A stretch of 64,000 nt of DNA from Bradyrhizobium sp. AUGA SZCCT0158 (GTDB lineage: Bacteria; Pseudomonadota; Alphaproteobacteria; Rhizobiales; Xanthobacteraceae), in NCBI RefSeq assembly GCF_018130065.1, contig NZ_JAFCME010000003.1:254501-318500 (forward strand). The letters run 5' to 3'. Positions within the stretch are counted from its first letter, which is position 1. Every line of letters starts with the position of its first letter. The notes beneath the pieces were generated by a model. That model saw only the letters and a list, made by a program, of their open reading frames with translations. It had not been told where the DNA came from and did no database searches. The position numbers and the translations under genes were made by a program. Shown piece after piece: positions 54,900-59,400 of the stretch.

Positions 54900-55673
54900 T
54901 TAGCGTTCCACGAACGCCTTTTCGATCACGAAGTGACCGGGCTGGCTGTGGCTGCCTTCGAGGAAGTCGCGGGTCTCGAACAGCTGGCGCAGTTCTTCCA
55001 GCATGCCGGGGCTGCCGCACATCATGATGCGGTCGGTCGCGATATCGAGCGGCGGCTGGTGGATGTCGTTGAACAGCTGTTCCGAGGTGATCAGGTCGGT
55101 GATGCGGCCGCGATTGCGGAACGGCTCGCGGGTCACGGTCGGATAATACAGCAGTTTCTCGGACAGTAGCGGCCCGAACAATTCGTCGTCGCGCAGCTTC
55201 GCGACCAGCTCCTCGCCATAAGCGAGTTCGGAAACCTGCCGGCAGCCATGAACCAGCACGATGGTTTCATAGCGCTCATAGACATCCGGGTCCTTGATCA
55301 GGCTCGCGAACGGCGCAAGCCCGGTGCCGGTCGACAGCAGCAGCAGGCGCTTGCCCGGAATCAGATTGTCGGTGATCAGCGTTCCCGTCGCCTTGCGGCC
55401 GACCAGGATGGTGTCGCCTTCGCGGATCTTCTGCAGCTTCGAGGTCAGCGGCCCGTCCGCAACCTTGATCGAGAAGAACTCGAGTTCCTCCTCGTGATTG
55501 GCGCTCGCCATGCTGTAGGCACGCAGCAGCGGGCGGCCCTCGACCTCGAGGCCGATCATCGCGAACTGCCCATTCTGGAAACGGAAGCCGGAATCGCGGG
55601 TGGCGGTGAAGCTGAAAAGCGTATCGGTCCAATGACGGACAGAAAGAACTTTCTCTCTATAGAACGCGCTCAT
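54900..55673 (-). CDS. fpr: Ferredoxin-NADP reductase
   Basis: 257 residues, the normal size. FAD binding is shown by LLRAYSMAS, NADP binding by LLSTGTGLAPFASLI and CGSPGMLEELR, and the C-terminus AFVER is typical of the bacterial class I type. It moves electrons between NADPH and ferredoxin or flavodoxin. The upstream region carries a 9-bp-arm inverted repeat near 55762. Confidence 0.94.
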   Translation of the reverse strand: MSAFYREKVLSVRHWTDTLFSFTATRDSGFRFQNGQFAMIGLEVEGRPLLRAYSMASANHEEELEFFSIKVADGPLTSKLQKIREGDTILVGRKATGTLITDNLIPGKRLLLLSTGTGLAPFASLIKDPDVYERYETIVLVHGCRQVSELAYGEELVAKLRDDELFGPLLSEKLLYYPTVTREPFRNRGRITDLITSEQLFNDIHQPPLDIATDRIMMCGSPGMLEELRQLFETRDFLEGSHSQPGHFVIEKAFVER

Positions 55674-55978
55674 GTGTTTTCGTTTTTCCTGACGTCTTGG
55701 TGTAGAACAAATCAGTTTCTTGCCGGTTTTTCGGGGCTCAAAGAGCTAAAAACCCGCGAAATCATTGGCGATTTGACGTTTCAATTGCGCCAATGACAGA
55801 GATAGTCAAGATCAATTGGCGTACAATTGAGAACTCGGAATGGCAGTCGGTTTATTTTGCGGAAAGGTTCGATTGGTCTTCGTTAATGGAGATCTCACAC
55901 GCAATTAACTTGCTGAAATTGACGCCGATCTGGCAATAAATTGCTACGCGAATTTTAGAACGCGTCAAAAGAGACCGC
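55674..55978. other. AT-richer intergenic region between fpr and the ATP-grasp gene
   Basis: About 300 bases of clearly lower GC than the surroundings, with no gene. It holds the promoters of the divergent fpr and ATP-grasp genes. Several CAATTG/AATTG tracts and the stem at 55762-55796 lie here. Confidence 0.6.
55762..55796. promoter_or_regulatory. 9-bp-arm inverted repeat
   Basis: TCATTGGCG (55762-55770) and CGCCAATGA (55788-55796) are perfectly complementary with 17 bases between. Being about 90 bp upstream of fpr and 180 bp from the ATP-grasp start, it could be an operator for either gene. Confidence 0.35.
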
Positions 55979-56980
55979 ATGCGAAGCGTGAAAGAATTTC
56001 GACAAGGTAAACCGGGCTTTTATCCGGACCAGTCGATCTACGCCGAATTCGCCTGCGCTGAATTCGGGCTCGCCTTTCGCGATCTCGACGGCGGCTCCGG
56101 GCTGCTCTTCAGCGTCGCTTCGCCGAACAAATTGCTGCATTTCGGCGCCGGCCGCTGCTCCTGGTATCCGCAGAACAATGCCACCGCCTCGACGCTGGCG
56201 TCCGATAAATACTTCACCGGCAAAGTTCTTGAAGAGGCCGGGATATCGACGATTAGCAGCAAGTACTTCTTCCTCCATGAACGCTATCGCGCACATCGCC
56301 CCCCAGGGCATGAGCGCGAGGACGCGTTGACACACTTTCGCGAATTGGGCGCATCCGCCTTCGTCAAGCCGCTGACGGGATCGCGCGGCGATTTCGCGCA
56401 AAGGATTCACGGCGAAGCTGCGCTCATTGGATATCTCGACGACGTCGCGAAATATTACGACGCGGTGCTGATCCAGCCGATCGTCGAGGGCACCGAGTAC
56501 AGGGTCTTTCTGCTCGACGACGACGCGCTGTATTGCGCGCGCAAAAATCCGCCCTTCGTCCGCGGCGACGGCGTGCACACGTTGCGCGAATTATTTACCG
56601 CCCATAACGATGCCCTTCGCGCCCGCGGTCTCTCGCCGGCCTCCCCCGGGGAGCGCGACCCCTCGCTCGACGCCGTGCTGCCGCAAGGCGAGCGCCGCGA
56701 CATTCCCGGGCGGATGAATCTGAGCGCCGGCGGAACGATGGTGCTCGAAGCTGCGCCTTCCGAAGCAGCCACGCTGGCGAAAAAAGCCGCAAGCGCACTT
56801 GGGCTTCGCGTCGCCGCCGTCGATCTGTTCGTCGGGATCGGCGGCGATCCCGGCGCCATGGCGGTGATCGAAGTCAATTCCAACCCGTCGATCCGGCTGC
56901 TGGAAGAATCCGACCGCGGCGATCTGATCCTGAAGATCTGGCAGCACACGTTTCACGCGATGGGACTGCTCGGTGTTTGA
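55979..56980 (+). CDS. ATP-grasp ligase, cyanophycin-synthetase-like
   Basis: 333 residues; AAAGAGA lies 7 bases before the ATG. ATP-grasp landmarks in order: SDKYFTGKVLEEAGI (A-domain), SAFVKPLTGSRG (Lys and Gly loop), LIQPIVEGTEYRVFLLDD, the ARKNPPFVRGDGVHTLREL segment, and the metal site VAAVDLFVGIG and AVIEVNSNPSIRLLEE. The VRGDGVHTLREL and VEGTEYRV stretches closely resemble the ATP-grasp half of CphA and GshAB. It should join an amine to a carboxylate through an acyl-phosphate. The gene overlaps the next, a Mur-type ligase, by 8 bases; CphA has both domains in one chain. Confidence 0.8.
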   Translation: MRSVKEFRQGKPGFYPDQSIYAEFACAEFGLAFRDLDGGSGLLFSVASPNKLLHFGAGRCSWYPQNNATASTLASDKYFTGKVLEEAGISTISSKYFFLHERYRAHRPPGHEREDALTHFRELGASAFVKPLTGSRGDFAQRIHGEAALIGYLDDVAKYYDAVLIQPIVEGTEYRVFLLDDDALYCARKNPPFVRGDGVHTLRELFTAHNDALRARGLSPASPGERDPSLDAVLPQGERRDIPGRMNLSAGGTMVLEAAPSEAATLAKKAASALGLRVAAVDLFVGIGGDPGAMAVIEVNSNPSIRLLEESDRGDLILKIWQHTFHAMGLLGV

Positions 56981-58289
56981 CCTGCCAAAATACGGCGACG
57001 GCATCTGCCTCGCGCGCCTGGCCGAATTGCTCGACGCGCTCAAGATCGATCGCGCGCGGCTGCAGCGAAACTCGGTCGTGGTGACCGGCTCGAACGGCAA
57101 AGGCAGCACGGCTGCGGTGTGCGCCGCGATCGGCCGCGCCTGTGGCCTGCGAACCGGTCTTTTTACTTCCCCTCACTTGCTGCGCTTCAACGAACGCATC
57201 CGGATCGATGATGCCGAGATCGGTGATGATGATTTCGCCCGGTGCAAGCAAAGGGTTGAGACCGCCATCGCCGAAATCTCGCAGCAGCGCGGCGAACAGT
57301 TCGGCGCGTTCGAAGCGTTGTTCGCCCTCGCCTGCCTGCATTTCCAGGAAAACGATTGCGAATTCACGGTGTTCGAGGCCGGCATCGGCGGCCGCTACGA
57401 TCCCGTCCGCCTGGTCGGCGCACGCGAAACCTGCGTGACGTCGGTCGATTTCGAACACGTCGAATTGCTCGGCAACACGCTGGCGCTGATCGCTTCCGAC
57501 AAGAGCGACGCCTGCGCCGACGGCGGCACCATCATCTATGGCGAGAATTGCCGCGGCCTGCGGCGGCATCTGCTCGAATATAATCGCCATCGTGGAGTCA
57601 CGTCGCTGTTCGTCCGCGATGAGATCGGTATCGACGGCGAGTCCGCGTCCCCGTCAGGACAGCGGTTCGATTACCGGTTCGGCCATCACCACTATCGCCA
57701 CCTCGAGATGCGCCTGCTCGGCGCGGTTCAGTTCAACAACGCCGCGATCGCCGTCACGCTGTTCCTGCTCTGGCTGCAGGGCGCGCAGGCGAGCAAGGCG
57801 CCTGAGCGGATCGAGCAAGCTATCCGCACCGGCCTGCGCCAGACGCAATGGCCCGGCCGTCTCGAAATCATCGCGCAGGCCCCACTGACGGTGATCGATG
57901 TCGGCCATACCCCCGACGGCATCCGACAATCGCTGGCGAGCCTGAAGGCGATCCACGGCGCCGACGACTGGATCCTCGTCACCGGCGCCTCCGGCGACAA
58001 GAAGGCGAACGAGATCGTAGGCAGCCTGGCGCCGGCTTTCGACACGATCATCTGCACGGCGGCGTACCACAAGGGCGCCAAGCCGCACGACATCGCTGCC
58101 GCGGCGCGGTTCGCCAATCCAGCCGCGGATATTCGTGTCGCGGATACGATCGAAGAAGCGGTGCGGCTGGCCGGTGCGTTGGCGGCGTCGCAGAAGCGCA
58201 AAGTATATGTCGCGGGCGGACTGTTCCTGGCGATCGAATACGCCACGACCGCCCGCGGCGGACGCGCGCAGGATTTGCAATTCTTCTGA
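56973..58289 (+). CDS. FolC/Mur-family ligase paired with an ATP-grasp enzyme
   Basis: 438 residues from GTG 56973, 8 bases inside the ATP-grasp gene. The P-loop is VVTGSNGKGST, followed by LFTSPHLLRFNERIRI as in folylpolyglutamate synthase. The Glu/His metal site lies near TVFEAGIGGRYDP and TSVDFEHVELLG. The C-terminal domain has LTVIDVGHTPDGIRQSLASL and ILVTGASGDKKANEIVG. It could be annotated folC, but the fixed overlap with a CphA-like ATP-grasp suggests a dedicated amide-ligase pair rather than folate synthesis. Confidence 0.8.
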   Translation: MFDLPKYGDGICLARLAELLDALKIDRARLQRNSVVVTGSNGKGSTAAVCAAIGRACGLRTGLFTSPHLLRFNERIRIDDAEIGDDDFARCKQRVETAIAEISQQRGEQFGAFEALFALACLHFQENDCEFTVFEAGIGGRYDPVRLVGARETCVTSVDFEHVELLGNTLALIASDKSDACADGGTIIYGENCRGLRRHLLEYNRHRGVTSLFVRDEIGIDGESASPSGQRFDYRFGHHHYRHLEMRLLGAVQFNNAAIAVTLFLLWLQGAQASKAPERIEQAIRTGLRQTQWPGRLEIIAQAPLTVIDVGHTPDGIRQSLASLKAIHGADDWILVTGASGDKKANEIVGSLAPAFDTIICTAAYHKGAKPHDIAAAARFANPAADIRVADTIEEAVRLAGALAASQKRKVYVAGGLFLAIEYATTARGGRAQDLQFF

Positions 58290-58398: not shown

Positions 58399-59400
58399 AT
58401 GAACGCCACCGTCAATCGCCAGATCCTGCTGGTGGAAAAGCCGACCGGCAAGCTCGGACCCGAGCATTTCAAGATGTCGGAGGGTGCAGTGCCGGAGCCG
58501 AAGGACGGCGAGGTGCTGGTGCGGGCGCGCTATATCTCGCTCGACGCCGCCAACCGCGCATGGATGCACGGCGCCACCTATCGCGCCGCGGTCGAAGCCA
58601 ACACCGTGATGGCCGGCGGCGGCATCGCCGAGGTCGTGTCCTCGAAGGCACCTGGCCTCAGCCCGGGTGACATCGTGTTCGGCGACACCGGCTGGCAGGA
58701 TTACGCGGCGGTGCCCGCAAAGCATTTGACCAAGATGCCCCGGATGGAGCCGATGACGCATCTGCTCAGCGTCTACGGCATTGCCGGCCTCACCGCCTAT
58801 TTCGGCCTGCTCCATGTCGGCAAGCCTAAGGAAGGTGAAACCGTCGTGGTCTCGGCCGCCGCCGGCTCGGTCGGCTCGATCGTCGGCCAGATTGCGAAGA
58901 TAAAAGGCTGCCACGTCGTCGGCATCGCCGGCGGCAAGGACAAATGCAACTGGCTCACCAGCGAGCTCGGCTTCGACGCCGCGGTCGATTACAAGGACGG
59001 CGCGACCTACAAGGCGCTGCGGGCGGCGGCGCCGAAGGGCATCGACGTCTATTTCGACAATGTCGGCGGCGACATTCTGGAGGCCTGCATCGCGCTGATG
59101 AACAACCGCGGCCGCATCTCCTGCTGCGGCGCGATCTCGCAGTATGACGGCGTGCCGTCGGCGACCGGCCCGCGCGGCGTGCCCGGCCTGATCGTGGTAA
59201 AGCGCCTGATCATGCAAGGCTTCATCGTGATGGACTACATGAACGAGCGCGATTCTGCGTTGAAGGACCTGCAGTCCTGGGTCGCTTCCGGCAAACTGAA
59301 GGTGCAGGAAGACGTCATCAACGGCCTGGAGAACACGCCGCAGGCGCTGATCGGATTGCTCGCCGGCGAGAACCGCGGCAAGCGGATGGTGAAGGTGTAG
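58399..59400 (+). CDS. NADP-dependent MDR oxidoreductase (CurA-like)
   Basis: 333 residues; GGGAG lies 8 bases before the ATG. Zinc-free medium-chain reductase: substrate-binding start DGEVLVRARYISLDAANRAW, cofactor motif VVSAAAGSVGSIVGQIAKIK, and FDNVGGDILEACIALMN, typical of leukotriene-B4 12-hydroxydehydrogenase/CurA enzymes that reduce enones. It lies about 110 bp behind the ligase pair and likely has its own start site. Confidence 0.9.
   Translation: MNATVNRQILLVEKPTGKLGPEHFKMSEGAVPEPKDGEVLVRARYISLDAANRAWMHGATYRAAVEANTVMAGGGIAEVVSSKAPGLSPGDIVFGDTGWQDYAAVPAKHLTKMPRMEPMTHLLSVYGIAGLTAYFGLLHVGKPKEGETVVVSAAAGSVGSIVGQIAKIKGCHVVGIAGGKDKCNWLTSELGFDAAVDYKDGATYKALRAAAPKGIDVYFDNVGGDILEACIALMNNRGRISCCGAISQYDGVPSATGPRGVPGLIVVKRLIMQGFIVMDYMNERDSALKDLQSWVASGKLKVQEDVINGLENTPQALIGLLAGENRGKRMVKV

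Follow-up and report, generated by a model that had tools for sequence, protein, structure and literature searches.

A conserved pair of ATP-grasp and FolC-type ligase genes in Bradyrhizobium and its relatives, compared with cyanophycin synthetase

Not all peptide-like molecules are made on ribosomes: ATP-grasp and Mur-type ligases produce, among others, cyanophycin, poly-gamma-glutamate and the stems of peptidoglycan. The 64 000 nt stretch of Bradyrhizobium sp. AUGA SZCCT0158 analysed here (the window; G000:C23:254501-318500 in a genome, G000, of 7.35 Mb) includes a gene for an ATP-grasp amide ligase that overlaps a gene for a FolC-type Mur ligase, and an original prediction made from the sequence alone had likened this pair to a split cyanophycin synthetase. 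No description of such an ATP-grasp and Mur/FolC pair was found in the open-licence full-text literature, a scope that leaves subscription journals outside. A conserved pair that couples a CphA-type ATP-grasp with a FolC-type ligase would represent one more way of putting this non-ribosomal logic together.

Cyanophycin synthetase (CphA1) is a single chain with N, G and M domains, and the Mur domain of CphA is placed close to MurE and MurF in the available part of PMC11915815. In the accessible text of PMC9427784, three residues of CphA1 (N394, R323 and R458) are assigned to the substrate Asp and S396 to its pocket; R309 and H267 are given a role at the acyl phosphate, and E215 one at the Arg side chain of the polymer being extended. 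For GshF, the same text has Met or Tyr where CphA1 has R458. The genes for cyanophycinase and CphA were clustered in 535 of the 658 genomes holding both (PMC10206079, available part). Cyanophycinase is a usual, though not universal, companion of CphA. The pair in the window resembles CphA1 in the order ATP-grasp then Mur-type ligase, in the G-domain fold over its full length and in the retention of the Asp-recognition and catalytic residues R309, N394, S396 and R458. It differs in consisting of two open reading frames, both in the window and in all 47 related loci examined, in lacking an N domain and in having a FolC-type partner where CphA1 has an M domain related to MurE/F.

Linkage and distribution of the gene pair

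The ATP-grasp gene (55979..56980, + strand) starts with ATG and encodes 333 aa; the protein is of the CphA1 G-domain type and lacks the N domain of CphA. The ligase gene (56973..58289, + strand) starts with GTG and encodes 438 aa, a diverged member of the FolC superfamily. The end of the first reading frame and the start of the second share 8 bases (56973..56980, + strand), and both lengths and the overlap were exactly as predicted. The GC content at codon positions 1, 2 and 3 was of the coding type in both genes (0.66, 0.46 and 0.74 for the ATP-grasp; 0.67, 0.47 and 0.80 for the ligase), and the ratio of non-synonymous to synonymous substitution rates, 0.16–0.19 for the ATP-grasp and 0.14–0.27 for the ligase in six comparisons each, indicated purifying selection on both. 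The divergence of the two proteins was correlated (r 0.87, 28 rows), a value that shared descent also predicts.

A search of 146 Bradyrhizobium genomes found the ligase gene immediately 3′ of the ATP-grasp gene in all 34 genomes with a close ATP-grasp homologue (at least 64 % identity), and the ATP-grasp gene immediately 5′ of the ligase gene in 34 of the 35 genomes with the ligase, the exception being G006. These counts leave out a 23-residue match (G033:C9), an incomplete second ligase in G031 and a split-off piece in G089; contig ends truncate two of the 34 ATP-grasp genes as well as some loci, and the match in G054 extends one residue past its own stop. The partial second ligase copy in G031 (L071:3886-4527, corresponding to G031:C1:8557885-8558526; 214 aa, 72 %) lies about 3 kb from an intact pair. 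A second scan, which took a single genome from each GTDB species and used two peptide patterns based on the family, gave 48 loci, of which 47 were usable once L124, an 18-residue match, was excluded. The ligase gene was directly downstream in all 47, with an overlap of 8 nt in 18, of 1 nt in 26 and none in 3, and no fused ATP-grasp/ligase relative was found among them. Because the genome set and the locus set share some members, the two counts of adjacency do not stand as independent evidence. Adjacency and the tight junction hold down to approximately 50 % identity, and the linkage of the two genes in relatives, which the prediction had named as a check, is thereby established. A chance overlap of open reading frames was ruled out by this conservation, the tight junction (8, 1 or 0 nt) being present at every one of the related loci. 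The tight junction is conserved; the prediction that the overlap forces the two genes to be translated in a coupled way went too far, as there is no overlap in three loci.

By name, 42 of the 47 loci were from Bradyrhizobium, Tardiphaga or Rhodopseudomonas (Nitrobacteraceae in the NCBI taxonomy), and the other five came from metagenome bins whose names are less specific. Close copies were confined to the Nitrobacteraceae in a sample of 398 Pseudomonadota genomes. The remaining ATP-grasp matches above the limit were mostly in long CphA-like frames, and the single further FolC-like match was 35 % identical. In a plasmid collection, ATP-grasp matches did not exceed 29.4 % identity and were to genes named CphA, NAGGN synthetase or GshAB or to nameless genes, while the FolC-like matches (best 40 of 108) did not exceed 34.5 %. 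No ATP-grasp match was found beside 37 FolC loci (L143-L179), which include only short flanks. Two loci named Bradyrhizobium jicamae, L121 and L122, differed in the identity of the pair to that in the window (51 and 49 % for the two proteins in one, 75 and 74 % in the other), which suggests that the pair has been replaced as a unit or that there is a problem with the naming.

In G006 the ligase gene is intact (L070:4988-6304) and has no adjoining ATP-grasp gene. In the 471 bases that separate it from fpr, the reductase gene upstream of the pair, the N-terminus of the ATP-grasp survives in decayed form (54.5 % over 33 residues; 36.2 bits, with the best shuffled query reaching 24.6 bits). Elsewhere in this genome there is a distant ATP-grasp gene of the same family (L051:4980-6008, 42 %) adjoining a phosphoenolpyruvate carboxylase gene; its product joins the paired family at 99/96 in the tree, but on a long branch. 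All 35 ligase-bearing genomes of the 146 hold some member of the paired ATP-grasp family. In the gene calls made here, the end of the L051 ATP-grasp gene overlaps the start of the carboxylase gene by 4 bases.

These data bear on the possibility that the two enzymes belong to separate pathways and share an operon, or that a redundant FolC copy lies beside an unrelated ATP-grasp. The separated ligase in G006 is consistent with this, as is the finding that the two have no further pathway gene linked to them. We regard it as improbable in view of the adjacency in 34 of 34 genomes and 47 of 47 loci, tightly joined even at approximately 50 % identity, the presence of an ATP-grasp family member in every ligase-bearing genome and the family-wide residue changes in the ligase described below.

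Comparison of the ATP-grasp protein with CphA1 and related ligases

The ATP-grasp protein was below the Pfam cut-offs (RimK, 19.1 of 21 bits). Its top NCBIfam match was to TIGR02068, cyanophycin synthetase, in the ATP-grasp part only, which bears out its description as CphA-like; the 80.9 bits obtained, and the 31.6 bits of the ligase, miss an equivalog cut-off of 850 bits that was set for the full-length fused protein. An AlphaFold model of the protein (mean pLDDT, the predicted local distance difference test score, 85.4) was closest in fold to residues 157-486 of TeCphA1, the G domain (VIA Z 17.7, 277 residues, root-mean-square deviation (rmsd) 4.6), and Foldseek placed GshF and CphA1 first. 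The ATP-grasp domain of GshF (3ln6) and the RimK-family alpha-L-glutamate ligases ranked level with CphA1 (Z 17.0 and 16.8, respectively). The protein differs from both in falling below their NCBIfam cut-offs (44.5 of 425 bits for GshF; 43.8 of 143.4 bits for RimK, TIGR00768) and in having a different partner.

An alignment of 31 members of the family (from 30 of the 47 loci and the window) was compared with 12 bacterial CphA-type proteins, three of 15 ATP-grasp loci having been dropped for want of the CphA motif. R309, N394, S396 and R458 of CphA1 correspond to R175, N247, S249 and R306, which were present in all 31 members, and the position of R323 was occupied by Lys (K189), a conservative change, in all 31. 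All five of these columns were fixed in the 12 CphA-type proteins. The ATP/Mg residues K130, D282, E298 and N300 were also retained. Three features of the family differ from CphA1. The position of H267 was Arg (Arg136) in all 31 members and Gln (nine) or His (three) in the CphA-type proteins. The position of E215, a column set via the DK motif, was Tyr (23), His (four), Phe (two) or Ala (two) in the family and Asp/Glu (nine), Ala (two) or Gln (one) in the CphA-type proteins. Two insertions relative to CphA, specific to the family and conserved in it, were found near residues 58-67 and 99-113; one of the two has many invariant Arg and His residues (H100, R102, R107 and H111, with R104 nearly invariant). 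As both E215 and H267 vary among the 12 CphA-type proteins, they are poor markers of CphA and their replacement is weak evidence against it. From these residues we infer that the ATP-grasp enzyme retains an acidic amino acid as acceptor, and that the donor differs from that of cyanophycin synthesis and may be anionic.

The gene order, which is that of the CphA domains, the best fold match to the CphA1 G domain and the retained Asp-recognition residues would all be explained by a split cyanophycin synthetase whose product is cyanophycin or a closely similar polymer. Against it, the N domain is missing, no fused relative occurs among the 47 loci, and the Arg at the H267 position is shared by all 31 family members and is never found in the 12 CphA-type proteins. 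Cyanophycinase, usually clustered with CphA in the available part of PMC10206079, was found in none of the 10 pair- or ligase-bearing genomes searched, with matches in five of 14 control genomes. No CphA was seen in the genome of the window itself at an E value of 0.001, since the only ATP-grasp match there was the gene in the window. The partner is of the FolC type, and is distinct from the CphA M domains that PMC11915815, in the available part, relates to MurE and MurF. A split synthetase is thus very improbable, and a literal CphA cut in two was rejected on the type of the partner, the missing N domain and the lack of cyanophycinase in the 10 genomes.

The FolC-type ligase and the canonical folC

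The ligase exceeded the cut-off of the NCBIfam folC model TIGR01499 (251.2 versus 162.65 bits), in agreement with its predicted assignment as a FolC/Mur-type ligase, and reached only 31.6 bits with the cyanophycin synthetase model. All 28 members of the ligase family examined matched TIGR01499. The model of the protein (pLDDT 92.2) was closest to the FPGS of Lactobacillus casei (Z 44.1, 399 residues, rmsd 2.2). Sixteen FPGS/FolC entries scored Z 39.6-44.1, the Helicobacter pylori enzyme 30.5 and CphA1 27.5, and the top 16 matches in Foldseek were all FPGS/FolC. In a tree of 51 rows, from which L176, L177 and the CphA locus L134 were omitted, the family was monophyletic (100/100) and outside the alphaproteobacterial FolC clade that contains the resident folC. 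Five CphA M domains were separated from the ligase and FolC proteins at 100/100, with the meeting of long branches there flagged as a risk, and this separation, together with the fold scores, spoke against the predicted resemblance to a split synthetase. Support for the FolC grouping was 22/68, and the exact place of the family among the FolC proteins was not settled by the tree. A recent duplication of the resident alphaproteobacterial folC was rejected as the origin of the ligase on its position outside that clade.

A second FolC, 29 % identical to the ligase in the window, is encoded elsewhere in the same genome (G000:C19:75371-76606), with genes that score as trpA, trpB and trpF approximately 1 kb away. 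It scored 348 bits with TIGR01499, compared with 251 for the gene in the window. The ligase is therefore not the only folC of the genome, an alternative that was rejected on this finding, and the check for a canonical folC that accompanied the original prediction was answered by the gene near trpFBA. Among the matches listed, a further FolC-type match was present in 34 of the 35 ligase-bearing genomes, the exception being G099, an 81 %-complete assembly. As the canonical gene sits elsewhere, the NCBIfam-style name 'bifunctional protein FolC' may mislead when applied to the ligase in the window.

The ligase family (27 of the 47 loci and the window, 28 members in all) was aligned with 29 canonical FolC proteins, one of 30 loci not having been extracted. 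The catalytic set was kept in all 28 members: N41, G42, K43, G44 and S45 of the P-loop, E135, H162, K177, R296, D309, H312 and K343. However, 15 sites that are held by at least 25 of the 29 canonical FolC proteins differ in at least 27 of the 28 members, namely T40S, Y64F, T111G, T117F, L134F, N146R, V147L, I155V, D161E, E176D, G179D, I180A, G310V, N313T and S416G. Eight of these (T117F, N146R, D161E, E176D, G179D, I180A, N313T and S416G) were changed in all 28, with the original residue in 27-29 of the 29 canonical proteins. In the available text of PMC10861534, Ser473 is modelled, with Val474 and Val475, around the gamma-carboxylate of glutamate; matched by the GS motif, this Ser falls in the S416G column. 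The K367 column, which is Arg in 16 of the 29 canonical FolC proteins, is tentatively the counterpart of the Arg modelled at the alpha-carboxylate in the same text. The ligase thus shares with FolC/FPGS (TIGR01499; L. casei 1jbw, Escherichia coli 1w78) a score over the cut-off, the fold and the ATP/Mg catalytic residues, and differs in its separate clade, its 15 changed sites, its ATP-grasp partner and its coexistence with a canonical folC. The pattern suggests the chemistry of FolC acting on different substrates, with an amine partner that is probably not Glu.

An alternative is that the pair tailors folate or a pterin, with the ligase as a specialized second FolC and the ATP-grasp adding a residue, such as an alpha-linked Glu or Asp, to give an unusual folate tail. 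This would fit the FolC score, the close FPGS fold and the weak scores of the ATP-grasp to RimK and MptN alpha-glutamate ligases. The TSPHL..NER motif of the Omega-loop is also retained. The TSP part includes the Ser that is replaced in the S73A entry of L. casei, which we take to be a Mg ligand, so retention of the motif need not mean folate. Changes in all 28 members at sites conserved in FolC, including D161E, T117F, N146R and S416G, and the coexisting canonical folC weigh on the other side, and we consider folate tailoring unlikely.

A possible two-step pathway and its chromosomal slot

The best explanation, to which we give about an even chance, is that the two enzymes catalyse successive ATP-dependent amide or isopeptide ligations in one small pathway with a non-folate product, a cyanophycin-like logic built from different parts. 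Two such steps, other than plain folate chemistry, had been predicted, and two conditions that would have refuted them, unlinked genes in relatives and a sole folC in the genome, were found not to hold. In the first step, the ATP-grasp would phosphorylate the carboxylate of a donor, perhaps an anionic one, and the activated donor would be joined to an amino acid of the acidic type, Asp or Glu being the likeliest. The product would be an amide or isopeptide metabolite or a short polymer, neither folate nor cyanophycin. Conservation of the pair, the retained catalytic and acidic-amino-acid-recognition residues, the loss of FolC-conserved residues and the separate folC can be read in the sequences; the reaction steps, the substrates and the product are inferred from them.

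Several observations count against the two-step pathway. The CphA1, GshF and RimK folds are tied, within 1 Z, and fold alone is not specific to CphA. Given this tie, and since N394 and S396 may also occur in ligases that do not use Asp, Asp is no more than a candidate substrate. The clear membership of FolC by NCBIfam score keeps a folate-like substrate among the candidates, and G006 keeps the ligase without an adjoining partner. The neighbours (fpr, a CurA-type reductase and AcrAB, with an SBP3/SDF pair in relatives) form no evident biosynthetic cluster, and the flanking genes remain where the pair is absent. The persistence of the flanking genes makes them poor evidence for the function of the pair, leaving only two genes tied to the pathway.

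In the window, the gene upstream of the pair (54900-55673, - strand) is divergent and fpr-like, encoding a ferredoxin-NADP reductase, and the gene downstream (58399-59400) encodes a CurA-like reductase; both are named from their top NCBIfam matches, which were under the cut-offs. The order in relatives is fpr, ATP-grasp, ligase and then CurA, many also having an SBP3 and SDF transporter pair on the opposite strand before CurA. The two genes ahead of fpr in relatives, labelled by reading their sequences, are presumably glutamate-synthase-like and then patatin-like. A defence system was rejected, as PADLOC gave no match.

In Bradyrhizobium without the ligase, the slot beside fpr can hold a single, different ATP-grasp gene (KPNEG-type, 29–39 % identical). 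This was the case in all eight loci inspected (L052, L053, L054, L055, L072, L073, L074 and L075), from eight genomes (G003, G108, G137, G063, G144, G087, G040 and G090) among the 74 that lack the ligase and gave a weaker match to the ATP-grasp. The solo genes formed their own clade (100/100), apart from the paired family and CphA, on long branches that leave its exact place unsure. No genome showed a solo gene alongside a paired one, each paired genome having one ATP-grasp match among the matches listed, apart from the 23-residue piece in G033. Exchange of the slot with a solo ATP-grasp ligase would suit an exchangeable, lineage-specific metabolite. A fuller and more tentative proposal, which we hold to be somewhat doubtful, is that the Nitrobacteraceae have a specific two-enzyme pathway in which a CphA-type ATP-grasp and a re-purposed FolC-type ligase re-invent the logic of cyanophycin synthesis to make, through an acidic amino-acid step, an undescribed isopeptide or amide metabolite or polymer, encoded in a slot that alternates from one species to another between the pair and a lone, unrelated ATP-grasp ligase. 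The pair, carried by some soil and plant-associated bacteria, would point to an undescribed product in bradyrhizobia and Rhodopseudomonas.

The divergent intergenic region common to fpr and the pair (55674..55978) is the probable promoter region of the pair. A sigma-70 consensus was sought in this region and not found. Two inverted repeats lie within it, GCAA-N5-TTGC (55901-55913) and GCAA-N4-TTGC (55933-55944). Among the 11 aligned rows from outside Tardiphaga and Rhodopseudomonas, the former was present in all 11 and the latter in six, and the other three aligned rows had neither. These repeats are possible sites for a regulator. The same region includes a perfect 7 bp inverted repeat, TCAATTG-N5-CAATTGA (55812-55830), the right arm of which is better conserved in the alignment than the left.

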